This document shows, piece after piece, positions 1 through 29,043 of a DNA stretch of 29,123 nucleotides. Origin of the DNA: a virus. The translations under genes were made by a program, and so were the position numbers. Within the stretch, counting starts at the first letter, position 1; every line of letters starts with the position of its first letter. The notes under the pieces were generated by a model that saw only the letters and a program-made list of their open reading frames with translations, had not been told where the DNA came from and did not search any database. Location: IMG/VR virus record IMGVR_UViG_3300030419_002757, positions 1,900-31,022 of that record; one strand, 5' to 3'.

Positions 1-991
1 CAAGTTTAAGCTGTTGTGACTCTTCAATGATATTCGTTCCGGGCTTGTATGTGACGCTATCAAAAAATATTGTTTCAGAAACATCATATTCAGCGGCATA
101 TTGTTGATATTGAAAATCCAAATGTTTATCATTTATTGAATTTGATGCAATACATAAGTCTGCGGGCATTTCATTTAGCTCGGCCAAGCGAATAAAAGCT
201 CTTGTATCTCTTGGAAAACAAGGACCACCCCAACCAAAACCATATCTAAAAAACTTATTATTAATTCTACTGTCTGATCCAACTGCATTCAAAACACTAT
301 GGGGGTTTGCCCCTATCTTAGATGCAATGTCGCCCACCATATTGGCAAACGATATTTTAACAGTCAAAAAACAGTTCATTGAAACTTTTGTTAATTCTGC
401 ACTTAATCTATCCATTGTATGTACAATTGGGGAGTTCATACATACTTTTTCATACACCTTTTCAATTGCATGAGCAATTTCATTGGATTCCGCTCCAATG
501 TAAACACAGTCTGGGTAACTCTGGTTGTATAGAATTGTGCCTTGAGCAACTGTTTCGGGATTAAAACTTACCGTCCAATTTAAATTGTTCAACCTGTCTG
601 CAACAGTGTTGGAATATCCCGGATTGACATTAGAGCAGATAACCAAATGTTTTTTATCTTGTTGTTTTCCCAGTTCAACCAATGAATCAACAACACTATC
701 GACTTGAGATACATCATACTTACCATCGGGTTCTGATTCTGTACGCACAGTTACAAAAATAAGTTCTCCGTGATCCACGGCTTTTTTCAAATCGATTGTT
801 GCGTGGAGATTTTTAGAACGAGCAAGGGTGCCATTAACATGAGGTTCAACAGAGGCAAAAGTTTTATCATTGATCTTATCAACATACTCTTTCACTATGT
901 CAACCCCAACAACATTGAATCCTGACTTCTCCAATGTTAACGCAAAACATAAGCCCAATCGACCTATTCCAATAACTGATAAGTTTTTCAT
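1..991 (-). CDS. UDP-glucose/GDP-mannose dehydrogenase family protein (partial, 3' end outside window)
   Basis: Oxidises a nucleotide sugar to a nucleotide uronic acid using NAD, in the cytoplasm. I translated it by hand; at least 330 residues are present and the C-terminus lies beyond base 1. The N-terminus has a Rossmann motif (VIGIGRLG, residues 6-13). NPETVAQGT (about 144-152) stands where the family has its NPE-x-L-x-E-G segment, followed by the AELTKVSMNCFLTVKISF helix with Lys and Asn. The catalytic cysteine is in GGPCFPRDT (Cys258), and YKPGTNIIEES matches the family's late YKPGTDDxRxS signature. The ATG at 991 lies 1 nt after the stop of the PIG-L gene, so it is the ninth gene of the glycan operon. 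Substrate (UDP-glucose, UDP-ManNAc or another) cannot be decided from these motifs. A uronic acid supply would fit the neighbouring glycosyltransferases. Confidence 0.9.
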   Translation of the reverse strand, partial: MKNLSVIGIGRLGLCFALTLEKSGFNVVGVDIVKEYVDKINDKTFASVEPHVNGTLARSKNLHATIDLKKAVDHGELIFVTVRTESEPDGKYDVSQVDSVVDSLVELGKQQDKKHLVICSNVNPGYSNTVADRLNNLNWTVSFNPETVAQGTILYNQSYPDCVYIGAESNEIAHAIEKVYEKVCMNSPIVHTMDRLSAELTKVSMNCFLTVKISFANMVGDIASKIGANPHSVLNAVGSDSRINNKFFRYGFGWGGPCFPRDTRAFIRLAELNEMPADLCIASNSINDKHLDFQYQQYAAEYDVSETIFFDSVTYKPGTNIIEESQQLKL

Positions 992-992
992 T

Positions 993-1634
993 CTACTCCA
1001 CCCATTTGTAAATTTTGTAAATCTCGCAATATTCCATATCACGATTAATAAAATTTTCCATCGAATAGATTCCAGCTATGTTGGTATATTTTTTTCTAAA
1101 ATAATTACCCTTTTTGGAATAAGATTGTTCTTTGGAAAAATCATAATTTGTTAAAAGATTGTGTTTAAACTCGTACAATTCTTTAGACATTTCAATGTAA
1201 TAATTGGGAATAAAGTTGACACTACTTGGACTGTAGACTGTAATGAATCTGTCGGCATGTTTAAACAAACCAAACGCCGCTTTATGGACCGCGAGATGAT
1301 CGGAGTGTGCATCCGAAGAGTCGTGTGTTATAATGTCAAAAGGTTCATCAAATTCAATCCTTTTGTAAAAGTCATCTTTCATAGTATCATAACTTTTGGT
1401 TAGTGATCTCTGAGGAAAATGTAAGTTAACATAGGTCAAATCTCTTCCGAGGGCTGTTCTCATTGTTTGGAAGTTTCTTTCAAATGTTGTTTCTTTTTCA
1501 TCCCAAAAACTTGCAATAACAATTTTAATGTCTTTGTAAAAATGGTGGTTTTTAAACAAATACCCCAAACAAGAAAATTCAAAATCATCAATATGAGAAA
1601 TAAAGAATATTAAATTTTTAGATTTCTTTTTCAT
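993..1634 (-). CDS. PIG-L family (LmbE-like) deacetylase
   Basis: Zinc-dependent hydrolase family that removes N-acetyl groups from sugars such as GlcNAc derivatives. I chose the ATG at 1634 (213 residues) rather than a longer frame reaching 1718. The family motif starts right after it: ISHIDDFEF (residues 12-20) corresponds to the usual HPDDE metal site, although the final acidic position is shifted. The second metal motif, THDSSDAHSDH, sits mid-protein. The extra 28 residues of the longer frame look like read-through of the GT8 gene in another frame. The start overlaps the GT8 gene by 17 nt, suggesting translational coupling. In this operon it probably de-N-acetylates an amino-sugar intermediate or product; that role is inferred. 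Confidence 0.85.
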   Translation of the reverse strand: MKKKSKNLIFFISHIDDFEFSCLGYLFKNHHFYKDIKIVIASFWDEKETTFERNFQTMRTALGRDLTYVNLHFPQRSLTKSYDTMKDDFYKRIEFDEPFDIITHDSSDAHSDHLAVHKAAFGLFKHADRFITVYSPSSVNFIPNYYIEMSKELYEFKHNLLTNYDFSKEQSYSKKGNYFRKKYTNIAGIYSMENFINRDMEYCEIYKIYKWVE

Positions 1635-2340
1635 AAACGTACTTCCACATCCTGTAAAAAATATCTTCACCGGCCTTCCATCGATCAGGAATCCAAGGCT
1701 TGTATCCATTAAATTCAACTATTTTTGCTTCTTTTTTATGAAACAAATAAGGATCTTTGTTATGATACAACTTGTGACAAAAATGATACTCATTGCCCAG
1801 TTCATAAAACGAATCAGGCAAATGTTTTCTAAAATACCAATCTATTAAAGTTTGATCATGATTTACCCAATTTGACTTGTCTTTGTATTCCATTAGGTCA
1901 ATAAAATATTGTTCGCGAGGTGTAAACACCAAAACCCCAGCTTCAAGTTCGCCAGTATGAGCAAGCAAGTAGCCACTCATAGATTCAAACTCAAACATGT
2001 TGTCAATGTTCTTTAATACCACACAATCAGCATCTAAATAAACTATCTTATCAAACTGAGTCATATTGAATACATTTAATTTGGTAAAAGTTAGCCAATT
2101 CTTACCTATTTCAAACCTGTCCCCATCTTCACCAGATGAAGAACTATGGATTTTTGGAACCTCCACCACCTCACAGCCAGCCTTTTCCAATAAAGATCTA
2201 TTCTGTTCAGACACCTCTTCGGATACCATACAATAGATCGGATATTCAGTTTTCGTCATTTTTAAAGACTTAACAACAACGATTGCGCCGGGCACAAAAA
2301 GATCATTTGTGGTCATCGTAACATAAGCATAATTATTCAT
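1618..2340 (-). CDS. Glycosyltransferase family 8 (glycogenin/galactosyltransferase-like)
   Basis: Retaining glycosyltransferase of the GT-A fold, 240 residues, using a nucleotide sugar and a divalent metal. The N-terminus NNYAYVTMTTNDLFVPGA is typical of GT8. The DxD metal motif is YLDADCVVLKNID with DAD at residues 103-105, preceded by the conserved WLTFTKLNVF helix (Lys before the DxD). The C-terminal IVEFNGYKPW matches the family's I-x-H-F-x-G-x-KPW, here with Glu in place of His. Length suits a glycogenin-type catalytic domain with no membrane segment. It lies 8 nt after the CgeB-like gene and overlaps the PIG-L gene. Sugar donor and acceptor are unknown. Confidence 0.9.
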   Translation of the reverse strand: MNNYAYVTMTTNDLFVPGAIVVVKSLKMTKTEYPIYCMVSEEVSEQNRSLLEKAGCEVVEVPKIHSSSSGEDGDRFEIGKNWLTFTKLNVFNMTQFDKIVYLDADCVVLKNIDNMFEFESMSGYLLAHTGELEAGVLVFTPREQYFIDLMEYKDKSNWVNHDQTLIDWYFRKHLPDSFYELGNEYHFCHKLYHNKDPYLFHKKEAKIVEFNGYKPWIPDRWKAGEDIFYRMWKYVYEKEI

Positions 2341-2348
2341 TTTATTTC

Positions 2349-3398
2349 CTATAGGGCTTTAACAACACTCATAAACTTATCCGCTCTTGCATCCCAAGTG
2401 TGATTAACAATAGCATGTTCATAAGCCGCATCAACAATTTTTCTTCTCTCTTCTTCATTTTCTTTGTAATATCTAATTTTTTCCACGAACTCTTCTGGGG
2501 ATTCAAATGCAACATAGTGTTTATCTTCTTCAAAAAGATTTTCGTAAACATTTACATTCTTGTCTTCCCTGTTGCAGTTTTCATCAAAACACCACATCTT
2601 ATTGGATCTATTGCACATAAGCATTGTTGTTTTTGTCATTGGAACCTCAAAATATCTGGTTCCGACAATATCAACCGGCCCAGTTGTACTAAGCCATATT
2701 TTGGCAGAATTGAGGCGCATTGCATAATCTCTAATATTATCATGATGGTGGTTTGAAAAATAAAAATCAATATCATCCCACTCTTGATATTTGTCTTTAA
2801 TTTGCTGCCTCAAGGTATGAGACCATCCTTGACCTTCTGGAGGTGTTTCTGGCAGTTTGTTAAATTCAGAAGTCTTTTCCCATCCGTTAGTAAAAGTATG
2901 TCCGAGACCACCAGTAAAACCAACATCATGGTCGCAAGGGCGATTGTAATCTTTAAACATCTCAGGGTCTGCTGCAAACGGGAGATGATGAAAAGGAACA
3001 CCAGTTGTTTTAGAAAACATATCGTAATCATGATGATAAGTGAAAGCAACATCTATTTTCTTTTCTTTTATCCAACCTAATTTAGTTGGTAGCGAACCAG
3101 CGTATTCTTTGTTTAAAATAATAGAAGTTGGAACCTTGCTATCTTCCAAACCTCTAATATTGGTCTCTCTATATTTAACTGCTCCTTTCCAAATGTTCAT
3201 CCAACCAAACCCAAAACAGATCAGGTCGGGCTTTATCGGAGCTTTGTCAATCAAATCATTAACGTGTACATCAAACCCTCTTGCATTAATAATAGATACA
3301 TTCGATTTTTTTGCAATCGAGTTCAATAGGCTTGAATAATATGTATAGGACTGGTTAGCACTTGGTACATAATTCGGCTCAAAATATAAAATATTCAT
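2349..3398 (-). CDS. CgeB-like glycosyltransferase (Glyco_trans_1_2 type)
   Basis: A 349-residue GT-B glycosyltransferase of the type found in spore-maturation CgeB and many phage/cell-surface clusters. The N-terminal half starts MNILYFEPNY and has FAADPEMFKDYN and HDVGFTGG in the inter-domain region. The C-terminal domain carries the features of the Glyco_trans_1_2 family: GTRYFEVPMTKTTMLMC, then LFEEDKHYVAFESPEEFVEKIRYY, then EEERRKIVDAAYEHAIVNHTW. The start ATG overlaps the stop of the upstream FkbM gene (TAATG), so the two are translationally coupled. No membrane helices or signal peptide are visible. Donor and acceptor are unknown. Confidence 0.85.
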   Translation of the reverse strand: MNILYFEPNYVPSANQSYTYYSSLLNSIAKKSNVSIINARGFDVHVNDLIDKAPIKPDLICFGFGWMNIWKGAVKYRETNIRGLEDSKVPTSIILNKEYAGSLPTKLGWIKEKKIDVAFTYHHDYDMFSKTTGVPFHHLPFAADPEMFKDYNRPCDHDVGFTGGLGHTFTNGWEKTSEFNKLPETPPEGQGWSHTLRQQIKDKYQEWDDIDFYFSNHHHDNIRDYAMRLNSAKIWLSTTGPVDIVGTRYFEVPMTKTTMLMCNRSNKMWCFDENCNREDKNVNVYENLFEEDKHYVAFESPEEFVEKIRYYKENEEERRKIVDAAYEHAIVNHTWDARADKFMSVVKAL

Positions 3399-4264
3399 TA
3401 TTCCTCCATTTCTCTTTCTTTTTTTACTTCTAAGTCTCTACGTTTTTGCTCTTCGTATTTACCTCTTAGGAAATCAACAGCTTCCAATGCTTCTTTTTGT
3501 TTTTCTTTGGCCCACAATTTTCTATTGTTGTAACCATAAGATCGATAGTCAGATTTCTGAAGGATATAATCAATAATTTTGTTGCTAAGATTAAAGCCTT
3601 TTAAAATGTGTTGAATCCAAGGTAGGCGGCGGTGTAGAGCATAAAGGCCATTCAAATAGTGTTCCATAATATCTTCTGACACATCAAAAGAATTGAAATA
3701 TTCACTCTTAATAAAGAAGCAGTCTTGGTATGAACACAATAACTTGTACCCTTTTTCTTCAAAAACGGAAGTAATAACTTTTAAACTTTGTTGGATATTG
3801 TGTCTTGATATTTCACCCGGAAGACGATGATAAAATGGTTCAACCATTTGTCCTCCCTCAATACAGATGACTTTGGGCATAAATTCAGAAAATGTCTCAA
3901 ATACTTCCAAGTCCAAACCATCAATATCAATGGAACAGAAATCGATTTCTCTATTGACATGGTTTCTAATAACATCATCAAATTTTGAATGCGTGTCGTT
4001 AATTGCATCATTCAAGCAAACAATATTGTCGTGATCTGAGTAGTTGTTTTTCAAAGCTAAGAATCTATCTTTTTCGGGCTCAATGAAAATCCCAGACCAT
4101 CCTTCCTCAAAGAGTTTTCGACAATTACTACCCTTGATGCCATCCCAAGCTCCAAATTCAACAAACAATCCCTCTTTAATGTTTAGAATATGAAATATTT
4201 TTTCAACAATCCCATCGTTACCCGTAGAAGAGTATTTATCGTATTTGTAGTCTAATAAGTTCAT
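3398..4264 (-). CDS. FkbM-like SAM-dependent methyltransferase
   Basis: A 288-residue class I methyltransferase-like protein. The SAM-binding motif I is LFVEFGAWDGIKGSNC (about residues 33-48), followed by IFIEPEKDRFLAL for the ribose-binding acidic strand and by FCSIDIDGLDLEVFETF (motif IV region, D-x-D-G). These are hallmarks of the FkbM family, which often O-methylates sugars in glycan clusters. The C-terminal 45 residues are charged and helical (from YNNRKLWAKEKQ to the end) and lie outside the catalytic core. It overlaps the upstream GT4 gene by 4 nt and the downstream CgeB-like gene by 1 nt. Methyl capping or decoration of the glycan is the likely role, inferred from context. Confidence 0.8.
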   Translation of the reverse strand: MNLLDYKYDKYSSTGNDGIVEKIFHILNIKEGLFVEFGAWDGIKGSNCRKLFEEGWSGIFIEPEKDRFLALKNNYSDHDNIVCLNDAINDTHSKFDDVIRNHVNREIDFCSIDIDGLDLEVFETFSEFMPKVICIEGGQMVEPFYHRLPGEISRHNIQQSLKVITSVFEEKGYKLLCSYQDCFFIKSEYFNSFDVSEDIMEHYLNGLYALHRRLPWIQHILKGFNLSNKIIDYILQKSDYRSYGYNNRKLWAKEKQKEALEAVDFLRGKYEEQKRRDLEVKKEREMEE

Positions 4265-5163
4265 TTTTTATTCTCCATAGTTGAATGAAAGAAATTAAAA
4301 TATCTATCCACAACATGTGACATTTCATAGTTTGAATCAAAATCGTTTTTTATTTTCTTTGAAAAGTCAATTTTTGGTGGCGAATAGAGGTCTACTGGTG
4401 AGAAGTCCCATTCGTTTTCTTCAATAATAATTGCATCTTTTCCAGCAATTTCTTTTGTGCCGCCTGTTGATGAACAAATTATTTGACAATCTGATGCTCT
4501 TGCATCGACAACCACGTTTGGACAATGATCTAACCACGCAAGGTGAATAAAATATTTTGACGCTTTGTAAATTGATAATAACCGATCCTTATTTACTTCA
4601 CCAACATAAAAAACCCTTTCTTGTTTTCTAATTTGGCTTTCGGTAACTCGACCTGCGATTATCAGGGCATCTTTTTCCCCAGAATGTTCTAAGAAGTAAT
4701 CTATATTTTCATCTAATCTTTTATGAGGTCTCCAAGAAGAAGCACAACACCATAGGTTGTCATATTTCTCGTTTCTCAGAGGATTGGTTGTTGAGATCAA
4801 CTCTGTATCAGCACCATTGCGAATAATAGAATAATTGTCATGTGTTCCAAAATATTCAAAAGCTAGTTTTTTATTAAAATCAGATTGGAAAACAACCCCG
4901 TCTGATCTTTGATAGGTTTTTAAAATATTAGAATTTTGTAGTTGCCAATCTTGCGTTGTGTTAAAATAAAGCCCATCTAAACGTTGTACAAGTGGTGCGG
5001 TATGATGTTGCTTAAATGACTCAATAAAGCACAAACTTGCATCAGCTTTTTTACTATCGTCAAATGAATGCCCAGCCAAGGAACCATATTTAAAAAGTTT
5101 TAAAGCAAACGAATTTGGACCAGAGTTGCTTCCTAAGTTGACATTTTCTAAGTGGATATTCAA
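4261..5163 (-). CDS. GT4-family glycosyltransferase
   Basis: A 300-residue GT-B glycosyltransferase, compact for the family. The linker VFQSDFNKKLAFEYFG followed by IIRNGADTELIS is the typical GT4 inter-domain segment. The C-terminal nucleotide-binding half has CCASSWRPHKRLD, then VFYVGEVNKDRLLSIYKASKYFIHLAWLDHCPNVVVDARASDC, where the family normally has the E-x7-E motif; the first Glu is not conserved here. The only reasonable start is TTG at 5163. It overlaps the stop of the upstream gene (TTGA, 4 nt) and has GAGG just upstream. It belongs to the nine-gene glycan operon; substrate unknown. Confidence 0.85.
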   Translation of the reverse strand: MNIHLENVNLGSNSGPNSFALKLFKYGSLAGHSFDDSKKADASLCFIESFKQHHTAPLVQRLDGLYFNTTQDWQLQNSNILKTYQRSDGVVFQSDFNKKLAFEYFGTHDNYSIIRNGADTELISTTNPLRNEKYDNLWCCASSWRPHKRLDENIDYFLEHSGEKDALIIAGRVTESQIRKQERVFYVGEVNKDRLLSIYKASKYFIHLAWLDHCPNVVVDARASDCQIICSSTGGTKEIAGKDAIIIEENEWDFSPVDLYSPPKIDFSKKIKNDFDSNYEMSHVVDRYFNFFHSTMENKK

Positions 5164-6782
5164 AACAACCTCTTGTATTTTTCCTGACTTCTTATCTTTT
5201 GAGAAGTTGCGTGTTGTTCTTGTTGTTTTATTTTATCGACATTATTTGGGTTCATCCTGTTGTAAACATGTAATATTTTTGATACATACTTTATCTTATC
5301 ACCCGCCATTTCTAACATCGGCAGCATCAAGGCTTGATCATAGGCGGTTTTGTAGTATTCACCATCATCATCTTGTAAGTCCTCCATATTGATCAAGTTC
5401 CACAGAAGCTGTTTGAATGTTCTCAAATGAGATGCCCTCCAATTGTCTTCTCTAAAAGTGTTGTTATCAATAACACGTTTTGGATACTTGGAGGGTTCAA
5501 CACCTTTTGTTGCCCAAGGGTGATAAACATAACTGCCGTATGTAAGCAAACATGACTCTTCATTGTATAATTTATTCAAATATTCAAAAACATGTATTGA
5601 AGAAAGCCAATCATCGCCATCTAAAATAATATTGATATCTTCTGATTCAATATGATGTTGCTTAGAGTTTAAAACACTTGCTATGTTGCCAAGAGCATAT
5701 TTTTTATCTTTGTTTTTAATTAAAACAAACCTTTCATCTTCTTTGATCAACTCCTCAACAACAGAAATAGAATTATCATCTGACATATCATCTATAAGAA
5801 AACATCTAAAATTAGAATACTTTTGCCTTTTGATACTTGTGATACATTTTTTCAACCACTTTTCGGCGTTGTAAAATGGCACCACAACATTAAAGCGTGA
5901 TTGTTTTTTTGATAAATTGTGACTAGGGGTTTCAAGATTATTAACCAACTCAAAGTGATCCCAAAACATTTCTGTTCGGTTTTTCAAATAAGTCAATATT
6001 GTTTCTCTATTTTCAAACCACTCTTCATCTTTGTGTTGGACATTCTCATTCAAAATAAGTTCACAATTTAATAATTTCGCTTCAATTACTAAACGAGGGC
6101 ATGTATCGGCTGCGCGTGGAAAAAAAATGAGACCTTTACTTTTTGCCATCTTTTCTAACAATTTTTCATATTCCAAGCCCCAAACCAATTCATATTTTAA
6201 ATTATTTTCTTTGGCATATTCAATTGCATCATCAACCCCTTTTATCCACGAATTAGAATTAAGAATTATCCATTTGTCATTTTTCTTAGAGGTATCTAAA
6301 TTTTCAATTAAATCTATGGTCTCATCACTAAAGACAGAACTCAAAACTTTATTTTTGTCTTCTTTTAAAAATGGAAACAAATTTCGATATCGCTGGCGTT
6401 GACCGTGACTCATCCACCATACAGTTTGAGCATTATTGTAGAATACTGAAACCATCTTGCCTTTAGAAGTTAGGTGGCAATCGCACTTACCCTCTGCGAG
6501 TGCATGTTTCTCTGGGGATCTAAAGCGACAATACTTGTAATCATATTCAAGAACAATGTACTTTAAATTCTTTAAAGCATAAAGAATACATTCATCACGC
6601 AAATTGGCAAAATTGCCAAAAATCCAGAATGCATCCTTGTATTGTTTCATCAAAGAGACGGTAACTCTATGTGAATGACTTTTCATACAAGGGTACAAGC
6701 TGGAATCAATAATAGCTTGGGTTGTTAATTCGGCTCCACCAACATAGTCTTTTACAAAACTATCGGAAACACATATGATCAT
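5160..6782 (-). CDS. Two-domain glycosyltransferase: GT4-like N-terminus fused to GT2 C-terminus
   Basis: A 540-residue protein with two catalytic-type domains. Residues 1-270 resemble a shortened GT-B enzyme: YVGGAELTTQAI near the start and, near residue 220, GLIFFPRAADTCPRLVIEAKLLNC, a GT4-like donor-binding region. After a short linker a GT-A domain of family GT2 begins at about residue 295: RFNVVVPFYNAEKWLKKCITSIKRQ, then FLIDDMSDD, then IILDGDDWLSS, which is the metal-binding DxD. The C-terminal part (HVYNRMNPNN) is less typical. One chain could add two successive sugars. The N-terminal domain may be degenerate and I cannot prove it is active. It is separated by 3 nt from the gene before it and overlaps the one after it by 4 nt. 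Confidence 0.85.
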   Translation of the reverse strand: MIICVSDSFVKDYVGGAELTTQAIIDSSLYPCMKSHSHRVTVSLMKQYKDAFWIFGNFANLRDECILYALKNLKYIVLEYDYKYCRFRSPEKHALAEGKCDCHLTSKGKMVSVFYNNAQTVWWMSHGQRQRYRNLFPFLKEDKNKVLSSVFSDETIDLIENLDTSKKNDKWIILNSNSWIKGVDDAIEYAKENNLKYELVWGLEYEKLLEKMAKSKGLIFFPRAADTCPRLVIEAKLLNCELILNENVQHKDEEWFENRETILTYLKNRTEMFWDHFELVNNLETPSHNLSKKQSRFNVVVPFYNAEKWLKKCITSIKRQKYSNFRCFLIDDMSDDNSISVVEELIKEDERFVLIKNKDKKYALGNIASVLNSKQHHIESEDINIILDGDDWLSSIHVFEYLNKLYNEESCLLTYGSYVYHPWATKGVEPSKYPKRVIDNNTFREDNWRASHLRTFKQLLWNLINMEDLQDDDGEYYKTAYDQALMLPMLEMAGDKIKYVSKILHVYNRMNPNNVDKIKQQEQHATSQKIRSQEKYKRLF

Positions 6783-6785
6783 ATT

Positions 6786-8030
6786 TTATCCTGATGCAGC
6801 CTCAAGAAAAAGTTTTTCAATCTCGTCATCATCTACAATAAGTTCTTTTTCACATATTAGATCAACGAATTTAGCATACATATTTTGCTCTTCAAACTTA
6901 TCTAAAATGATTGTCTTTAACTCTTCGGCAATTTGTTTATGTTCGGACCAATTCTTTTTCATTTCTCTTAATTTCATTTTGTAGGAACCTTGGTCCGCAA
7001 AAGCCCACATTGAATCTTTATCAATAACAGTGTCCCAAACAGCTTGTTTTTGAACTGGTCTGATAGAATATTCAACATTAGAAAAGTAGTCTTTACCATC
7101 ATGATGAAGAAAATCTAACTGTCCTGACCATCCGACTGTGATAACTGGTAGTGAATTTTGGGCGGCCTCAAACATTGGAAGACCAAAACCTTCTCCATGT
7201 GCTATATTCACAAGTGCTTTAATTTTATCATGACTGTAAAGCCATGTCATCTGGCCATCAGATAAATCACCATGTAAAATATAAACTTTACATTTTCTTT
7301 GTGGATATTTTTGAAGCAAAACCTCGTAATGTTCAGAAACCGCTTCCCAATCAAAATAACAATTTGATTTAAAATTGGTTTTAATAACTAAGCCAACCTC
7401 TTGGTCAATAAATTCTTCAACAAACCATTTTACAGTATTTTCTAAATTTTTTCTAGGACCCATTTGAGATACAACTAAAAAATTAAAATCAGTTGATAAC
7501 TCAAGATTAGTAATTGGCTCTGGTTCATGTGTTCTGACTGGATATCCAACCGAATTGATTGGAGTTGTCAAAGAGAAACCTTTTTTCTCATTTGTGTTTT
7601 TATTAACCATCATACCTTTGGTGGATTGATAAACATTTTTAGAATGCTCAGAAACAACAATGATATTGTCCATTTCATTTCCTTTTTGGAGCCACAAAGG
7701 AGACACTTTGTTTGTTTCAATACCTGCTGTGTAACCGATATTGATTGGTGCCATTTTTTGCCACTCATTCGGAATTGTAATCTGTAGAGAAATATCCGGT
7801 CTTAGTTTCTTTTGTGACATGAGGATTTGAGTTGTTGTGATTCTTTCATCCATCCATTGTCTAAATTCGCTATCTTCCCAGACCCATCCGGTTTGGCCCC
7901 AATTAATTGGGTTGATAAAGATTTCAAAATCATTTTCTCTAGTTCTTAAGGCTCTAAGGGCAAAGCGTGACTGTTCTCCATATCCTGATTGTGATAACAC
8001 AGGCCCATTAACTAAAATATTCTTTTTCAC
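6786..8030 (-). CDS. GT4-family glycosyltransferase
   Basis: A 414-residue GT-B glycosyltransferase. The N-terminus has the acceptor-side loop GPVLSQSGYGEQSRFALRAL. IIVVSEHSKNVYQ marks the end of the first domain, and FNFLVVSQMGPRKNLENTVKWF starts the second. The diagnostic GT4 motif is ALVNIAHGEGFGLPMFEAAQNSLPVI, with the two glutamates E-G-F-G-x3-F-E that contact the nucleotide sugar. The start is GTG at 8030, fixed by a strong SD (AAGGAGGT) and by the 4-nt overlap GTGA with the upstream stop. No membrane segment. Second gene of the glycan operon; donor and acceptor unknown. Confidence 0.92.
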   Translation of the reverse strand: MKKNILVNGPVLSQSGYGEQSRFALRALRTRENDFEIFINPINWGQTGWVWEDSEFRQWMDERITTTQILMSQKKLRPDISLQITIPNEWQKMAPINIGYTAGIETNKVSPLWLQKGNEMDNIIVVSEHSKNVYQSTKGMMVNKNTNEKKGFSLTTPINSVGYPVRTHEPEPITNLELSTDFNFLVVSQMGPRKNLENTVKWFVEEFIDQEVGLVIKTNFKSNCYFDWEAVSEHYEVLLQKYPQRKCKVYILHGDLSDGQMTWLYSHDKIKALVNIAHGEGFGLPMFEAAQNSLPVITVGWSGQLDFLHHDGKDYFSNVEYSIRPVQKQAVWDTVIDKDSMWAFADQGSYKMKLREMKKNWSEHKQIAEELKTIILDKFEEQNMYAKFVDLICEKELIVDDDEIEKLFLEAASG

Positions 8031-9292
8031 GCTACCTCCTTAAACCTTATTCCGCTGTAATTTTTTCTATTACTCCAAGAGCCATTTTTTTCATGAACTT
8101 TGTCCATGGCTTCAACCCACGTTTTTTTAAACTTGTCAAATCCATAGTTGTTAATAACATGTTGTCTACCTTTTTGGCCCATCTCTCTACGAGCTTCCGC
8201 TGTCATGTAATACATCTTGCTTAATGCAGATTCAAATTCTGATTGTGCTATGCGATCTTCATAAATATAAGGAACATCTAATGAGCCAATTACAGACTTG
8301 GCTTTAGGTGTGATGCCGATCCCAAACCACTCAGAGCCATCTGTGACTTGTTCTTGTAGTCCTCCGGTCATATTGACAACTATTGGAGTACCACAGGAAA
8401 GAGATTCAAGCGTAGACAAGCCAAATCCTTCGGCATCAGAAATGTTTATGGTACAATCAGCCATATTATATAAAGCAGCCAAATGGTGCGGAGTTACCTT
8501 ATCTGTGGAAAGCATAACTTGTCTATTTTCAAGTTTCAAGTGGTTTATGATGTGAGGCAGGTCTTGCCCATGAGGGTCTTTAGCATCAGTGTGCATAATC
8601 AATTGTGCTTTATCATGAAGGTCGTTTTTATCCAACCATTCTTTAAACCACCATATTAAAGTGCCAGATTGTTTCCGACGAGCATTGCGGTTGTTCCAAA
8701 AGAAGATTATTTTGTCTCTATCTTCGGGGGGGAGTGAGTCATTTCTTATTTTATCAATCTCAGACTGTGAAACTGGTTTAAATATTTCATTGTTCACAGC
8801 ATGAGGAATATATTGACGTTCTACTTCTGGTGCAACTATGGACACAATGTCGTCGGAAACTCTGGAAATCGTTGCAATAAAATCATTTGATAGATAATAT
8901 TTCCTATTAAAATGTGGGGCAGGGAAATTATCCCAAACATGGTAATAAACTATTGGAACTAAAGAGCGAATTTCATTTTCAATGTTCCAAAACCAACCCC
9001 AAAACCTTGGATCAGTCATTATCCAAACAATGTCTGGTTTTTCTGTTCTAATGACGGATCGAATCATCTCTGGATTACCATACCCATCAATCGGTATTAT
9101 TCTCCAATCATCCTCATATGGTTTTATTGTCACAGGTGTGTAATCATTATGTTTGATTGCGCCACCTAATGAGACAATAGAATACCTTCCGGTGTCCAGT
9201 AACGCAGTGCAAATATAATTTGTCTGTGTTCCAACACCGGAAGGCGAGAGGGGGTGATCAGAAAGTGTTAAAATCTTTATTTTTTTACTCAA
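8027..9292 (-). CDS. GT4-family glycosyltransferase (first gene of glycan operon)
   Basis: A 421-residue GT-B glycosyltransferase. It starts SKKIKILTLSDHPLSPSGVGTQT, with the glycine-rich acceptor loop. VSIVAPEVERQYIPHAVNNEIFKP is the domain linker. IIFFWNNRNARRKQSGTLIWWF begins the nucleotide-binding domain, and CTINISDAEGFGLSTLESLSCGTPIVV carries the E-G-F-G-x3-x-E signature. The start is TTG at 9292, because the promoter -10 element lies at 9311-9316 and leaves only a leader of about 12 nt. AAGAGG lies 6 nt upstream of that TTG. This gene receives the operon's promoter directly and probably has the highest mRNA level of the nine. Confidence 0.92.
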   Translation of the reverse strand: MSKKIKILTLSDHPLSPSGVGTQTNYICTALLDTGRYSIVSLGGAIKHNDYTPVTIKPYEDDWRIIPIDGYGNPEMIRSVIRTEKPDIVWIMTDPRFWGWFWNIENEIRSLVPIVYYHVWDNFPAPHFNRKYYLSNDFIATISRVSDDIVSIVAPEVERQYIPHAVNNEIFKPVSQSEIDKIRNDSLPPEDRDKIIFFWNNRNARRKQSGTLIWWFKEWLDKNDLHDKAQLIMHTDAKDPHGQDLPHIINHLKLENRQVMLSTDKVTPHHLAALYNMADCTINISDAEGFGLSTLESLSCGTPIVVNMTGGLQEQVTDGSEWFGIGITPKAKSVIGSLDVPYIYEDRIAQSEFESALSKMYYMTAEARREMGQKGRQHVINNYGFDKFKKTWVEAMDKVHEKNGSWSNRKNYSGIRFKEVA

Positions 9293-14788: not shown

Positions 14789-16561
14789 TTATACATTAGC
14801 TATTGCTTCTGCTGTTCTTAAACCTATTCTTCTTGTTTCAGCAATTAAAGTTTCATTTTGTTCTCTTAATTTTCTATTTTCGTCTGCAATTGGTTTCATC
14901 GCATCTTTAATCATTCCACCCAATTTTTCGATTGGAACAATAGCTTCTTGTGGGTGAACATTAACCAATCCCTCTTGTGTTGTTATACCACCGTCTTGTG
15001 CAGAAGCTACACCTTTTAGACCACCAATCAAACCACCAACTATTGCTGGTATACCTAAAGCTAATCCTATACCCAAAGGTCCCAAAAATGTAGCTTGTTT
15101 ACCTAGCATAGTTGCGATTGAGAACGCAAAGTTTAACATACTTTTACCAGCCATTACTCCTAAAAGACCTGTTATAATTGGTACTATACCTTTCATTTCA
15201 GATAAAGCTTTTGTAGCTGACACAAACCCACCTGCTATTTGACCTACCATAGGTCCTATTGAAATAATTAATTCCGCACCTACTGTTTTTAAATTATTTA
15301 TAATTTTTGATATATTATCCAAAGCATTCGGACCAATCATTTTTTCCAAACCAGGTTGGGCTGCGATTGCATCACCAAGAGTTCTAACCTTTTCTTGATT
15401 ATTAACCATTTTAGACATCTGTTCAACACTAACACCAAGAGCTTTGGCTAATGATTGCCTTTGTAATACATTCATTTTTTCAAATTCAGCTTGACTTCCA
15501 ACTTGTTTTGTTAATTCTACAGCAAATTCATCAGCTTTACCTGCCAAAGCTAGTTCTCTTGCCTTTTGTAGATTTACATCTCTACCCAACATGATAGAAG
15601 CTTCAATTTCAGCGTTAAGTGAACTTTGAAACTCTAACATACCTTCCATAGAACTTGCTATTGTGGATAAAGTTGTACCAAGTCTTGTCGCTTGAATTGC
15701 TGCTTTCATTAAATGTTCTGGTGTCATACCAGTGAATTTAGCTATTGATTCTGATGAAGCTGCGATATCCCTCATCACGGTATTTGGTGAAACTCCCTCG
15801 GCCTCGGCTAATAAAGCAGTTTGTTTTGCAAAGTTTTGAGCCGTGTCAAATGACATTCCCGCTACTTGAGTTAGAGTACCTAATAATTTAGTACCTTCAG
15901 AATTACTTATACCAAGTGCCAATGATGTATCTATAATATTATTAGCCATTTCAACTGATTCATCTCTTCCGAATCCAAAGTTATCGGTTAGCTCTTTTGA
16001 TACCGTGGCTACTTCTGCTAGTGATTGTCCTAATCTAGTAGCTTCTTTTCCAGCTACTAACATATCATTCTTAAATTGTTGATTTGTTATTCCAAGTGCA
16101 CCAAACTCTTTACCAATTGTACCTGTCATAGCAGCAAATTTTGTAAATATAGCTAATATACCACCACCTATACCAAAGATTGATAATGATGATTTTACCA
16201 TTTCGTGTAGAGATTCTGCAGATTTTTTTGTGGCTTCGTGTAACTCTTTTTGTTTCTTTTCTCTTGCTTCGTCTAATTTGTTCTGTGCTATTTGTTGTGT
16301 GACACTTTCAGTCGTAATTTTATATTTTCTAGCTAATATTTTATTCCCATTCTTTGCAAAGGTGTTAGCTTTTTCTTGTAAATTGTTTTGTATTTCACCA
16401 AGTTTATTATTATCCTTGGAATTATCTATGGCCTGTTGTACCAAATCTGCTCTATCTTGTACGGTTGTATTACCCCGTTTAAGAGTATTCGTATACTCCT
16501 GTTCGAGACTAACTAATTCATCTAATAAATCTCGTCTCTCTTTAAAATCTTCATTGGCCAT
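14789..16561 (-). CDS. Tape measure protein
   Basis: Sets tail length and is threaded through the tail tube before DNA ejection. At 590 residues it equals, as I recall, the length of T4 gp29, so the tail should be about as long as T4's. Residues 1-120 are charged heptad-like coiled coil. A hydrophobic stretch near 128-150 and a large one at about 455-520 (alternating Gly, Ala, Leu, Ile) are typical. The C-terminal block GGITTQEGLVNVHPQEAIVPIEKLG is the tape-measure ending seen in many phages, followed by a final coiled coil. It follows the tail assembly chaperone region, as is usual, and lies 4 nt after the small 85-residue gene. I see no hydrolase domain. Confidence 0.9.
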   Translation of the reverse strand: MANEDFKERRDLLDELVSLEQEYTNTLKRGNTTVQDRADLVQQAIDNSKDNNKLGEIQNNLQEKANTFAKNGNKILARKYKITTESVTQQIAQNKLDEAREKKQKELHEATKKSAESLHEMVKSSLSIFGIGGGILAIFTKFAAMTGTIGKEFGALGITNQQFKNDMLVAGKEATRLGQSLAEVATVSKELTDNFGFGRDESVEMANNIIDTSLALGISNSEGTKLLGTLTQVAGMSFDTAQNFAKQTALLAEAEGVSPNTVMRDIAASSESIAKFTGMTPEHLMKAAIQATRLGTTLSTIASSMEGMLEFQSSLNAEIEASIMLGRDVNLQKARELALAGKADEFAVELTKQVGSQAEFEKMNVLQRQSLAKALGVSVEQMSKMVNNQEKVRTLGDAIAAQPGLEKMIGPNALDNISKIINNLKTVGAELIISIGPMVGQIAGGFVSATKALSEMKGIVPIITGLLGVMAGKSMLNFAFSIATMLGKQATFLGPLGIGLALGIPAIVGGLIGGLKGVASAQDGGITTQEGLVNVHPQEAIVPIEKLGGMIKDAMKPIADENRKLREQNETLIAETRRIGLRTAEAIANV

Positions 16562-16565
16562 TGTT

Positions 16566-16823
16566 TTATCCTATTAAATCGTCTATTGTTACTTTTTTTG
16601 GTTTAAATGATTTGTGATTTGGGTCAACTTCGTTTGCAAACTTATTAAAATCATCCCACAAATCTTTGAGCTCTTTGTTTAAATTATCAACATCTTTTTT
16701 TGTTTTTGGGTCTTTTTTGATATTACGAACAGCTATTTTATTAGCTATCTTATTTATAATCTTTTTATAAAGACCTTCTGATAAGATGTTTTCTCTGTCC
16801 ATATATGATTTTTTCTTTGACAT
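16566..16823 (-). CDS. Small basic/acidic helical protein of unknown function
   Basis: 85 residues. I use the ATG at 16823 because GGAG lies 6 nt upstream; the TTG at 16835, 12 nt further up, would start inside that SD. The protein is highly charged with about 20 lysines, predicted helical, and ends VTIDDLIG. It starts SKKKSYMDRENILSEG, a beginning I associate with small proteins next to tail genes in marine T4-like phages, without known function. It stands 4 nt before the tape measure gene and has its own copy of the ATATTTATATATGA motif 26 nt upstream, so it heads the tape measure-to-hub transcript. A tail assembly helper is possible; unproven. Confidence 0.8.
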   Translation of the reverse strand: MSKKKSYMDRENILSEGLYKKIINKIANKIAVRNIKKDPKTKKDVDNLNKELKDLWDDFNKFANEVDPNHKSFKPKKVTIDDLIG

Positions 16824-16849
16824 AATACTCTCCAATTAGATGTAATTAT

Positions 16850-16878: not shown

Positions 16879-17106
16879 TTATCTTTTAAATCTTGGATTT
16901 GTGGTGGGGGATGATATGTTAGCTTTTTGATTAGCTTTTTTTATCTCTTCATTTTCTTTTTTTCGTGTATCAGCTAATTGTTTATAATAGAAATTTCTTA
17001 AATATATGGGCATTGTATATACATCAGAATGTGTAAATCCCTTTCCATAATACATCAGTTGAAATATTTGTTCGTGAAGTTTTGCTTTATCACTCGGTGT
17101 CAGGCC
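16879..17106 (-). CDS. C-terminal frameshift extension of the tail assembly chaperone
   Basis: An open frame of 75 codons, starting GLTPSDKAKLHEQIF and containing FTHSDVYTMPIYLRNFYYKQL, then a lysine-rich tail. It has no start codon with an SD. Upstream it is closed by a TAA just before the seven-T run of the 248-residue gene, so the frame opens only across that run. The first internal ATG (17055) would give 58 residues, removes the conserved-looking beginning and has no SD. I therefore read it as the second half of a chaperone fusion made by slipping +1 (or -2) on the T run. In lambda (G-GT), Mu and P2 such fusions recruit tape measure and tube subunits. The position directly before the tape measure fits. 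Confidence 0.7.
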   Translation of the reverse strand, partial: GLTPSDKAKLHEQIFQLMYYGKGFTHSDVYTMPIYLRNFYYKQLADTRKKENEEIKKANQKANISSPTTNPRFKR

Positions 17107-17836
17107 AAAAAAAGTTTACCGTCATCGGTATATCTACCTTGACAGTTTCCCCCCCTATTTCTATTTCTTGTTGTAATTCAATATCTGGAGAAACATCTTT
17201 GATTTCTTTTCTTAAAACCATTGAATCTCTAGCTAATAAATTTAAAACAAATTCGTTAATTTTGGTTTGTGTTTTATCACCATCAACGGCTGTGATGGTA
17301 TGTCTTAAACGAGTAGTCAATTCTGGTGAAACTTGTGTACCCAATTTTTTTGAAGCGTTTAATTCTTCTAATATCTTTGTTTCTTCCTTACCAGTCAATA
17401 ATTTAAAAGATATCTTCTTTTTAGATATTGGTAATTCAACCTCAAACTTATTTTGATTTATATTGTCTGGTAATTTTTTAAATGGACAATCTGCTAAATT
17501 AAATGTGTGTTGAATAGTTTCACCTGTAATTGGATTTGTAACCTCACAAGTATATTCAGGTCCGTAAGCTAAAACTCTAGCTGCTACCATAACTGCGTTT
17601 TTATCACCAAGAACCAAATCAGCACCTTTTACACCTTCTGTAAGAATAAGTGCATCTATTAATTTATCTATAACCACACCTTTTTTAATCAGATTCTGTG
17701 ATGTAAGAATATCCTCTTCTTTAGCAGTCATATATTTTATTTCAATTTTACCATTTCTTAATGGTGAATCTTCTGAATATAGTTTACCACCACTCGGTAA
17801 ATCTATTAATTCACTTGGAAACTTATTATCTGACAT
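17090..17836 (-). CDS. Tail assembly chaperone / baseplate hub assembly protein (gp26/gp51-like)
   Basis: 248 residues in the zero frame. It starts with LPSGGKLYSEDSPLRNGKIEIKYMTAKEEDILTSQNLIKKG, a pattern I recognise from T4-like phage proteins annotated as baseplate hub/chaperone (gp26-type). Two similar segments appear, near residues 20-60 and 135-165 (ISFKLLTGKEETKIL). A very strong SD (GGAGGT, 6 nt before ATG 17836) is embedded in the last codons of the lysozyme gene, coupling the two. The gene ends in a seven-T run at 17107-17113 followed by five codons and TGA. Slipping there would yield a protein of about 318 residues. Assignment as tail chaperone rests on this layout and on its place upstream of the tape measure. 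Confidence 0.7.
   Translation of the reverse strand: MSDNKFPSELIDLPSGGKLYSEDSPLRNGKIEIKYMTAKEEDILTSQNLIKKGVVIDKLIDALILTEGVKGADLVLGDKNAVMVAARVLAYGPEYTCEVTNPITGETIQHTFNLADCPFKKLPDNINQNKFEVELPISKKKISFKLLTGKEETKILEELNASKKLGTQVSPELTTRLRHTITAVDGDKTQTKINEFVLNLLARDSMVLRKEIKDVSPDIELQQEIEIGGETVKVDIPMTVNFFWPDTE
17107..17113 (-). promoter_or_regulatory. Putative +1 (or -2) ribosomal frameshift site, seven T
   Basis: Coding strand reads GTA AAC TTT TTT TGG in frame zero, which stops 5 codons later. Moving +1 after the second TTT gives TTT TTT (T) GGC CTG and opens 75 more codons. The -1 frame reaches TGA within three codons, so -1 is excluded. The +1 frame is closed by TAA just upstream of the run, leaving only this slippery run and a few following codons as the shift window. 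A sequencing indel in the homopolymer is the main alternative. Confidence 0.65.
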
Positions 17837-17837
17837 T

Positions 17838-18308
17838 TTATACCTCCATACTTCGTCTAAACCAACCGAAGTAAAATTTGTCTTGTTCTGGTTTTTTTGT
17901 TACTAAATCAGCGTAATATTTAACACGATAAGCTCTAACTCTTTCTACCTCTACACCTTTAAGTGCTTTGATAGTTGCTGGTCCTAAACCACCATCTACA
18001 TCAATACCTCTACCCTTACCATTAGCCGCTCTTTGTAAAATCTTTACCGCTGTTCCTCTACCCATATTAACACACATATCAAAGAATATGTGCCATAGAT
18101 TTTCTGGAAGTGATTCAACACGATTCTTATCCCAATAATCTCTTTTGTATATTTCTTTAGCTTGTTCTCTTGTCAAGTTCTTTATATCTACATCTGGATA
18201 GAATCTTTTTGTAATACCAAAATTAGTTTCACCACCCAAATCATTTGGGTCATTCACATAACCACCTTCGTGTTCTAGCACAGTTTCTATTATTTCATTG
18301 AAATTCAT
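17838..18308 (-). CDS. GH108-family muramidase (lysozyme) with peptidoglycan-binding domain
   Basis: Cleaves the glycan backbone of peptidoglycan. From ATG 18308 it has 156 residues, starting NFNEIIETVLEHEGGYVNDPNDLGGETNFGIT, the GH108 signature with the catalytic Glu at residue 14 (EGGY). The C-terminal half (ILQRAANGKGRGIDVDGGLGPATIKAL) is the PG_binding_3-type domain, and the protein ends WFRRSMEV. A longer frame begins at ATG 18350, but that ATG lies 1 nt from the promoter motif and lacks an SD, while AGAAGG precedes 18308. No signal peptide or membrane helix, so export needs a holin or it is a virion enzyme. It sits between tail tube and chaperone genes, with its own terminator-promoter cassette upstream. 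The 43-nt leader is longer than at most other genes here. Confidence 0.88.
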   Translation of the reverse strand: MNFNEIIETVLEHEGGYVNDPNDLGGETNFGITKRFYPDVDIKNLTREQAKEIYKRDYWDKNRVESLPENLWHIFFDMCVNMGRGTAVKILQRAANGKGRGIDVDGGLGPATIKALKGVEVERVRAYRVKYYADLVTKKPEQDKFYFGWFRRSMEV

Positions 18309-18351
18309 ATTTTTGATAACCTTCTTTTTTTTGAATAATTTACATAACATT

Positions 18352-18432: not shown

Positions 18433-18921
18433 TTAGAATTTAAGAACAGCGTAATCATATCTTAATGTTAAACTTATTTCAACAGGTGTAGCGTCATCAA
18501 AAGTTAAATCACCAAAATTAGCACTTTGTATATAACAACCTTTCAGTTCCCATTCCTCAACGACATCACCAACAGGCCCTAACACATTAAATGTAACATT
18601 TTTTTTGTAAAAATCAGAATATCCGTCTCTACCAGTTACTGATTCATGTGATAATCTTACCCATTCCATTACTTGTTGTGCTGCTGAAGGAACAACTGGG
18701 TCATATAAGGTAATCTCTAATGGCTGCCATCTTGACTTACCTTTAACATATCTTGTCACATTCATATGTTCCAAAATAACTTCATCTGATTCTATTGAAG
18801 GTCGAGTTGCGGTTTTAATTAAATAAGCGTTAATACCATCAATTTGCATAATAAATCTATTTTTGAGCTTTGGCTCAAAGGGTGTAAACATTATGTCTTG
18901 TGGTTCTAATATCTCTGCCAT
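18433..18921 (-). CDS. gp19: Tail tube protein (gp19-like)
   Basis: Subunit of the inner tail tube, stacked as hexameric rings beneath the sheath. 162 residues, almost the same as T4 gp19 (163). The pattern is typical: LKNRFIMQIDGINAYLIKTATRPSI near the N-terminus, RYVKGKSRWQPLEITLYDPVVPSAAQQVMEW in the middle, WELKGCYIQSANFGDLTFDDATPVEISLTLRYDYAVL at the C-terminus. It follows the sheath gene and has its own promoter copy 32 nt upstream and terminator downstream, giving a monocistronic transcript suited to a highly abundant subunit. SD AGGAG precedes ATG 18921. Confidence 0.95.
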   Translation of the reverse strand: MAEILEPQDIMFTPFEPKLKNRFIMQIDGINAYLIKTATRPSIESDEVILEHMNVTRYVKGKSRWQPLEITLYDPVVPSAAQQVMEWVRLSHESVTGRDGYSDFYKKNVTFNVLGPVGDVVEEWELKGCYIQSANFGDLTFDDATPVEISLTLRYDYAVLKF

Positions 18922-28065: not shown

Positions 28066-29043
28066 CTATAATAAACCAGCTAGTTTCTTAAATCTGTTAG
28101 CAACTTGACTTTCTTCAGTAATCACTTTACGAGATTCTTTAGAAGGTTTTGTTGACGCAACAGCAGAACTGGCTGATTCGCTAATTGATTTTCTAGTTTT
28201 AATTGAACCATTATCACCGAACTGTTCTGCAAGTGTAGAATAAACAAGTTTAATCTCTCTTGTAGTTTGAGCTCTGTCAAATGTTTCAACTACTTTTAAT
28301 TTTTGACCGTTATCCAAAGAAAATTCTTTGAACAATTTATTTGTGAATAGAAGTTTAGCATTCAAAATGTTTACTTCATGAAGTTTGTCTTTCAAGAAAT
28401 GAACTGCTTCTTTGTATTCTTTCAATTCAGCTTGTACTTCAGAAAGTTCAGATGAATCATCTTCAACAGATTCTTCTACTTCTTTTTCATCATCGTCATC
28501 TTCAGTAAGAGCAGCCTCATCGATTTCATACTCTTCTTCAACAGTTTCATCGACATCTTCTTTATCATCATCATCTTCATCTTCACCTTCTGAAAGTTCA
28601 GATTCTAATTCTTTGATAACAGCTTCTAAGTCAAGTTCTTCTTCAACTTCATCTTCATCATCATCATCATCTTCTTCTTCTTCAGCGACTACTGGTGCGT
28701 ATTTTACACCATCGATTTCAATGATACCTTCTTCTTCAACTTCTTCGTGAGCACCCTCTTCTGCCTCTTCTTCATCATCACCACCAAAGTCTTCGTCTTC
28801 ATATTGACCTTCTTCAGCTGGAACTTCATCTTCGTGAGCACCTTCATCAGCTTCAACTTCATCTTCATCTTCATCTTCTAAAACAGGTTCACCTTCTTCA
28901 AGTTCATCCTCTTTAAGTTTAGCAGATAATATAGATTTAAGTTGAGGTGTGAATGCTTCTTCTAAAGCCATCTTTGCGTTTTGTAAAGCTGTTTCACGAA
29001 CTGCTTTAGCATCAGCAATGGCTTCTTTTAATAAATCACTCAT
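28066..29043 (-). CDS. gp22: Prohead core scaffold protein (gp22-like)
   Basis: Internal scaffold for head assembly, normally degraded by the prohead protease. 325 residues (T4 gp22 has 269). Residues 1-45 form a helix (LKEAIADAKAVRETALQNAKMALEEAF). Residues 48-195 are extremely acidic, with short runs of Glu and Asp and repeats such as EGAHED/EGAHEE. Residues 200-325 are coiled coil and helix (VQAELKEYKEAVHFLKDKL, LLFTNKLFKEFSLDNGQKLKVVETF), ending ANRFKKLAGLL. Its place just upstream of the capsid gene matches T4 order 22-23. Motifs fitting the protease rule (LSE) occur in the acidic region. No promoter motif is visible between 29044 and the window end, so it is probably co-transcribed with upstream genes. 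Confidence 0.88.
   Translation of the reverse strand: MSDLLKEAIADAKAVRETALQNAKMALEEAFTPQLKSILSAKLKEDELEEGEPVLEDEDEDEVEADEGAHEDEVPAEEGQYEDEDFGGDDEEEAEEGAHEEVEEEGIIEIDGVKYAPVVAEEEEDDDDDEDEVEEELDLEAVIKELESELSEGEDEDDDDKEDVDETVEEEYEIDEAALTEDDDDEKEVEESVEDDSSELSEVQAELKEYKEAVHFLKDKLHEVNILNAKLLFTNKLFKEFSLDNGQKLKVVETFDRAQTTREIKLVYSTLAEQFGDNGSIKTRKSISESASSAVASTKPSKESRKVITEESQVANRFKKLAGLL

Follow-up and report, generated by a model that had tools for sequence, protein, structure and literature searches.

A predicted +1 ribosomal frameshift next to a conserved 5' RNA hairpin in a T4-type tail assembly chaperone gene

In the lambda gpG/gpGT system, and for other frameshifted tail assembly chaperones, a gene lying between those of the tail tube and the tape measure protein gives a short and a long product by means of a ribosomal frameshift, which is mostly -1, as in lambda. 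Short and long tail assembly chaperones have also been published for T4-like phages, with poly-T -1 sites in some of them (Vladimirov, Gautam and Davidson 2022, as given in the accessible parts of PMC10885494 and PMC12846349). The archaeal myovirus HSTV-2 is a proposed case of +1 shifting, for which the accessible part of PMC5009743 mentions no upstream hairpin. Furthermore, reporter work has shown that a hairpin positioned shortly 5' of a slip site lowers -1 shifting and raises +1 shifting (PMC3639245; also the accessible part of PMC5009743); the stimulation of +1 shifts was shown in yeast with an engineered reporter, and the closeness of the hairpin matters (PMC3639245, work on the SARS-CoV attenuator hairpin). 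In the present study we analysed 29,123 nucleotides of a virus (IMG/VR record IMGVR_UViG_3300030419_002757, positions 1,900 to 31,022, hereafter the window), which carry a tail chaperone gene that shares with the lambda type its place in the tail cluster but differs in the direction of the predicted shift. On sequence grounds this gene very probably yields two products via programmed +1 ribosomal frameshifting, mainly a gp26-like short form of 248 aa and, in smaller amount, a gp51-like long form of ~318 aa. The frame layout, the slip-site rule, a covarying hairpin and the homology to T4 gp26 and gp51 are established below by sequence analysis, and the positions of all features are given in Table 1.

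The 0-frame gene ends with GTA AAC TTT TTT TGG CCT GAC ACC GAG TGA (minus strand, 17836->17090). An earlier note, made from the letters of the window, had placed the end of this 248-residue gene five codons after a run of seven T (T7), with a +1 move opening 75 further codons that have no start of their own and are closed upstream by TAA; every one of these sequence details checks out. Skipping one base at T7 opens 75 codons (GLTPSDKAKLHEQIFQLMYYGKGFTHSDVYTMPIYLRNFYYKQL...) up to a stop at 16879-16881. Upstream, the +1 frame is closed by the TAA inside GGTAAAC, only ACT TTT TTT preceding the site, and no ATG, GTG or TTG is found in this frame near the slip site. The same note was right that the -1 direction is blocked: the frame stops at once (TTG GCC TGA, with the TGA two codons on), whereas canonical -1 programmed ribosomal frameshifting, on a heptamer X_XXY_YYZ followed by a 3' structure, requires this frame to be open at the site. 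As in genes of the G/GT type, the second frame overlaps the first, is without its own start and is conserved among relatives. By its sequence matches the 248-aa gene belongs to the T4-type gp26 family (PF12322 / phrog_150): the 0-frame product scores 39.4 bits against PF12322 T4_baseplate (curated cut-off 24.5, residues 12-244) and 2e-11 against phrog_150 'baseplate hub', and 80 IMG/VR relatives show identities of 46-77%.

The comparison of the T run and the frames in relatives, which the earlier note had proposed, rests on a set of 168 distinct loci from three IMG/VR scans, two isolates and the window itself. One of the six IMG/VR search peptides held the residues FFW; back-translation permits TTT and TTC alike, so that the slip-codon counts are unbiased by it. 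The +1 extension is open in 166/168 loci, and in all 168 the 0-frame stop lies 3-8 codons past the slip codons. Exactly T7 spans the site in 128/168 loci and T8 in one. Past the 0-frame stop, the differences are distributed over positions 1, 2 and 3 of the +1-frame codons as 2183/944/3350, which is the pattern of a translated frame, and in the alignment of the extension (n=36) the residues Y30, P33 and R37 are invariant. Because the layout is conserved and the differences follow codon position, a sequencing error is not the explanation; the 166/168 relatives likewise rule out chance and a decayed gene. Further +1 layouts are present in Bacillus phage SP-15, Listeria phage LIS04 and Streptococcus phage GXN1. 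In the cultured Rhodothermus phage RM378 a gp26-like gene ends TCC TTT TTT TGG AAT, with the +1 extension open.

Analysing the slip codons together with the A-site codon, we found TTT TTT TGG in 119 of the 168 loci, TTT CTT TGG in 29, TTT TTT TAC in 9, TTC TTT TGG and TTT CTA TGG in 3 each, TTC TTC TGG in 2, and three single variants. What is common to the loci having a +1 extension (166/166) is a UUU codon in frame with U or C as the next base, which lets tRNA-Phe advance by one base and pair again on UUU or UUC. The P-site Phe is accordingly never TTC (0/73, against 124/648 at other positions of the gene; p=5e-7). The A-site codon in the family is UGG, UAC or UUC and never UGA of the prfB type. 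The two exceptions, L294 and L336 (A AAT TTC TTC TGG), have no UUU-pyrimidine; in them the extension lies in the -1 frame, with the heptamer A_AAU_UUC as a candidate -1 site. Their encoded proteins are just 62% identical, and thus they are not one contig seen twice; at the junction, around the gp26 stop, both contain the identical stretch CCTTCCCGGTAGATCCCGAATATAAACC.

Two features were absent from the earlier note: the hairpin conserved 5' of the slip site, and the fact that the extension is homologous to gp51. The mean folding energy in 50-nt segments is ~-13 kcal/mol directly 5' of the slip site and ~-5 elsewhere, and individual folds place the end of the 3' arm of a stem 3-5 nt ahead of the slip codons in most loci, and 4 nt ahead in the window. 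Against synonymous shuffles, in which protein and codon set are unchanged, the segment adjoining the site has a mean z of -1.98 while all the others range from 0 to -0.4. In 29 distinct sequences of the window's branch, pairing in the 7-bp outer stem amounts to 90.1%, and the hairpin reaches a covariation score of 0.506, compared with 0.219 (SD 0.026) for shuffles and <=0.18 when the partner is slid, with 30 stem cells changed on both sides; the analysis of covariation was also carried out with the inner stem included. A Shine-Dalgarno (SD)-like GGAGG stands just 5' of the hairpin in 72% of the loci, its excess over synonymous shuffles being modest, and is mostly forced by the encoded Gly-Gly-Glu.

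From these features we infer the occurrence and efficiency of the frameshifting, its stimulation by the hairpin and the roles of both proteins as follows. The tRNA-Phe on the P-site UUU would slip one base forward to UUU or UUC as the A-site codon waits, and the ribosome would then continue in the +1 frame leading to the long form. The hairpin, whose 3' end precedes the slip codons by ~4 nt, would re-form at the mRNA exit when the ribosome arrives at the site and favour the forward movement. If the roles are those of lambda G/GT, the tape measure protein would be covered by the short form, and tail tube subunits would be brought in by the long form.

Comparison with T4 supports the assignment of the two products. 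T4 gp26 and gp51 both match phrog_150 (7e-71 and 3e-84), and the C-terminus of gp26, GLKEFFELL, ends at an FF equivalent to the FF of the slip site while gp51 runs on. In profile-profile comparisons the extension family aligns with the C-terminus of gp51 at 83% (E 9e-6), the whole-fusion profile of the window's lineage aligns with the Kyanoviridae fusions at 96.5% across the junction (E 9e-10), and the Kyanoviridae fusion profile aligns with T4 gp51 at 99.2% (E 6e-20). This connection between extension and gp51 emerged from family-versus-family profiles only: single-sequence matches of the extension are weak (phrog_634 being the best, E 0.0016), a single-sequence profile comparison of the extension with T4 gp51 found nothing, and a hidden Markov model of the extension alone did not rank T4 gp51 proteins above shuffled decoys. 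On the family profiles, the extension is homologous to the C-terminal module of T4 gp51. The window's lineage resembles T4 in its phrog_150 match, in the equivalent FF end and in the gp51 C-terminal module, but in T4 the short and long forms are separate divergent genes instead of one gene with a predicted +1 shift.

The Kyanoviridae (P-SSM2, S-PM2, HTVC008M) possess the homologous gene with the shift at the equal place and the same C-terminal module, but there the predicted direction is -1. Their gp51 is annotated as a ~57-codon gene right after gp26. All the IMG/VR relatives of P-SSM2 gp26 (80/80) end with XXT TTT TTC one codon ahead of the stop, and their -1 frame runs on into gp51. Upstream, an SD-like GGAGGG gives anti-SD binding of <=-6 kcal/mol in 98% of 56 loci, 3 kcal/mol beyond synonymous shuffles, and downstream a stem-loop is predicted (-13.5 kcal/mol versus ~-5), S-PM2 having a stem of unrelated sequence at the equivalent place. 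Judged from these elements, Kyanoviridae gp26-gp51 appears to use U_UUU_UUC as a -1 site in a textbook -1 arrangement. The earlier note had stated that T4 encodes these proteins as separate genes, which is the case for gp26 and gp51, and that a fusion would be unusual among T4 relatives, which is only partly right because the Kyanoviridae and the window's lineage both appear to frameshift, in opposite directions, T4 being the exception. At a number of cyanophage loci (L102:1996-2891, L103:1472-2364, L113-L192) gp51 is annotated as separate yet resembles a -1 frameshift product. In Stenotrophomonas phage RAS14 (L090), in L092 and in Klebsiella phage FKP10 (L195) a -1-frame extension follows the gp26-like gene with no clear canonical heptamer or start codon.

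Several observations weigh against the proposed +1 mechanism or against the chaperone assignment. The first Phe of the slip site is TTC in only 3/75 loci compared with 124/648 elsewhere (p=2e-4), so that T7 is retained beyond the minimal rule, and a contribution of slippage could also explain this excess. The TTTCTN branch, which includes a cultured Flavobacterium phage, gives only a weak signal for the hairpin (mean z of -0.84), indicating that the hairpin belongs to part of the lineage and is not universal. The structure model, calculated for the 0-frame protein alone with a predicted local distance difference test (pLDDT) value of 89, resembles hub proteins, that of SP-15 among them, in a set of viral structure models, but a Foldseek search of the PDB gave nothing significant (E 2.7). 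In favour of the chaperone assignment, the top VIA-align match of the gp26 model is YqbN of a B. subtilis prophage-like element (3klu, Z 5.5, root-mean-square deviation 4.7, 89 aligned), followed by the HK97 tail assembly chaperone (2ob9, Z 5.4, deviation 4.5, 80 aligned), the next having Z 4.1; Z values of 5-6 are only middling (under 8), and the modelled fold is no more than suggestive of a tail assembly chaperone.

The main rival to ribosomal +1 shifting is a hairpin-dependent transcriptional slippage, in which the nascent hairpin causes RNA polymerase to drop one U from U7 and some of the transcripts encode the fusion in frame. The arrangement of a 5' hairpin, then a homopolymer and the loss of one base is known from the Roseiflexus IS630 transposase (PMC5009743, accessible part), and the prevalence of T7 in 128/168 loci, with T8 in one, together with its retention beyond the need of the minimal P-site rule, would be in agreement with it. 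However, such a mechanism predicts an unbroken tract, and the tract is intact in the window (T7) but not throughout the family: it is broken in 39/168 loci, 35 of them with no T run >3 and 4 more with T4 at most, and yet 37 of these 39 retain the +1 layout, some of them together with a strong hairpin (L035, L077, L348). The sequence TTTCTATGG has no homopolymer >3, and according to the accessible part of PMC5009743 a single rC:dA mismatch prevents such realignment. The gap of ~4 nt between hairpin and tract is also unlike Roseiflexus. We consequently regard transcriptional slippage as unlikely, although it may contribute in members with T7.

The earlier note had left open a -2 ribosomal shift besides the +1. 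On T7, and with the window taken alone, a -2 shift is possible and enters the identical downstream frame with one extra Phe; however, at TTC TTT TGG it would place tRNA-Phe on UCU, and TTT CTA TGG likewise forbids re-pairing, yet the layout is kept at both. Thus, the +1 part of the claim is the best supported and the -2 part is highly improbable. The second frame could also be conceived as a separate gene, translated by re-initiation near the gp26 stop, as it is annotated in cyanophages and in Pseudomonas phage Cygsa01; in the latter and in Vibrio phage K362 there are stop/start overlaps which look like coupled open reading frames (ORFs). In the window's lineage, however, the region from the upstream stop to codon 12 of the extension contains no ATG or GTG in 60/75 loci, and no ATG, GTG or TTG in 45/75. 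Moreover, the overlap is confined to 3-8 codons throughout, and its end falls on the slip site; in Kyanoviridae the ATG annotated for gp51 is part of the predicted 3' stem. A separate gene is scarcely credible here. Programmed +1 frameshifting of the ribosome is the reading that we retain.

Table 1. Positions in the window of the recoded gene, its elements and its neighbours
Feature	Position	Strand	Basis
Short form, gp26-like tail assembly chaperone, 248 aa	17090..17836	-	PF12322, phrog_150, IMG/VR relatives
Conserved RNA hairpin ACUGUCAaGGUAgauaUACCgaUGACGGU	17118..17146	-	Dip in minimum folding energy, individual folds, synonymous-shuffle z, covariation, spacing
Slip tract UUU_UUU_U (T7), then GGCC	17107..17113	-	Shared requirement: in-frame UUU + pyrimidine
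+1-frame extension, 75 codons (GLTPSDKAKLHEQIF...), gp51-like C-terminal module	16882..17106	-	Frame and profile homology
Entire recoded gene: predicted long form of 318 aa (junction NFF-GLTPSDK) + stop	16879..17836	-	Whole-fusion profiles
Tail tube gp19, 5'-side neighbour	18433..18921	-	phrog_4542 4e-29
Endolysin, Glycosyl hydrolase 108, adjoins recoded gene upstream	17838..18350	-	PF05838 3e-28
89-aa ORF between recoded gene and next large ORF	16566..16835	-	Without family match
590-aa ORF, likely tape measure protein	14789..16561	-	Position and C-terminal sequence; without family match

The recoded gene sits between the tail tube gene and the likely tape measure gene, with the endolysin gene and a small ORF intervening (Table 1). 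A tape measure protein is annotated at the position equivalent to the 590-aa ORF in Flavobacterium phage immuto (L081), and the major capsid protein places the phage of the window near immuto and Microcystis phage Mel-JY01 (50% identity). An identity of the extension with DUF6760 (PF20546) was considered and dropped, the match being weak (best 1.5e-4) and found in 0/4 phage records tested. Beside the tail genes, positions 1-9292 (minus strand) hold a cluster of glycosyltransferases, UDP-glucose/GDP-mannose dehydrogenase, PIG-L deacetylase and FkbM methyltransferase. Upstream of the major capsid gene, positions 28066-29043 (minus strand) encode a very acidic, Glu/Asp-rich protein, likely a prohead core protein.

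Among the known recoding systems, bacterial prfB shares the forward re-pairing in the P site, and a subset of the loci has CUU_U, which is the prfB P-site shift; the loci described here differ in having neither an A-site UGA nor an SD 3 nt from the site, and carry a hairpin instead. The synthetic 5'-hairpin system (PMC3639245) likewise has its hairpin a short way 5' of the slip site, although it is an engineered yeast reporter, while the window's lineage presents a natural covarying phage element. The searchable literature yielded no case of +1 shifting accompanied by a natural, conserved hairpin on the 5' side, nor one of orthologous genes that shift in opposite directions and have their structures on different sides of the site; the combination of +1 shifting and a natural 5' hairpin thus appears to be new. 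We lean, with some reserve, towards the broader proposal that a natural hairpin a few nucleotides 5' of UUU_Y drives +1 slippage in a major T4-type branch, whereas the homologous genes elsewhere shift -1 with a 3' hairpin, so that both directions would have arisen in one gene, the structure being shifted to whichever side the mechanics demand. The cyanophage 'gp51' is then probably not a separate gene, and a long chaperone is implied to be unannotated in many T4-type genomes. A natural, conserved and covarying 5'-hairpin case would let the mechanism of +1 stimulation be tested in bacteria. The same problem, the provision of a short and a long chaperone, seems to be solved in one orthologous gene by a +1 shift, a -1 shift, apparent coupled ORFs or two genes, and these several solutions make the evolution and the mechanics of shift direction directly comparable.
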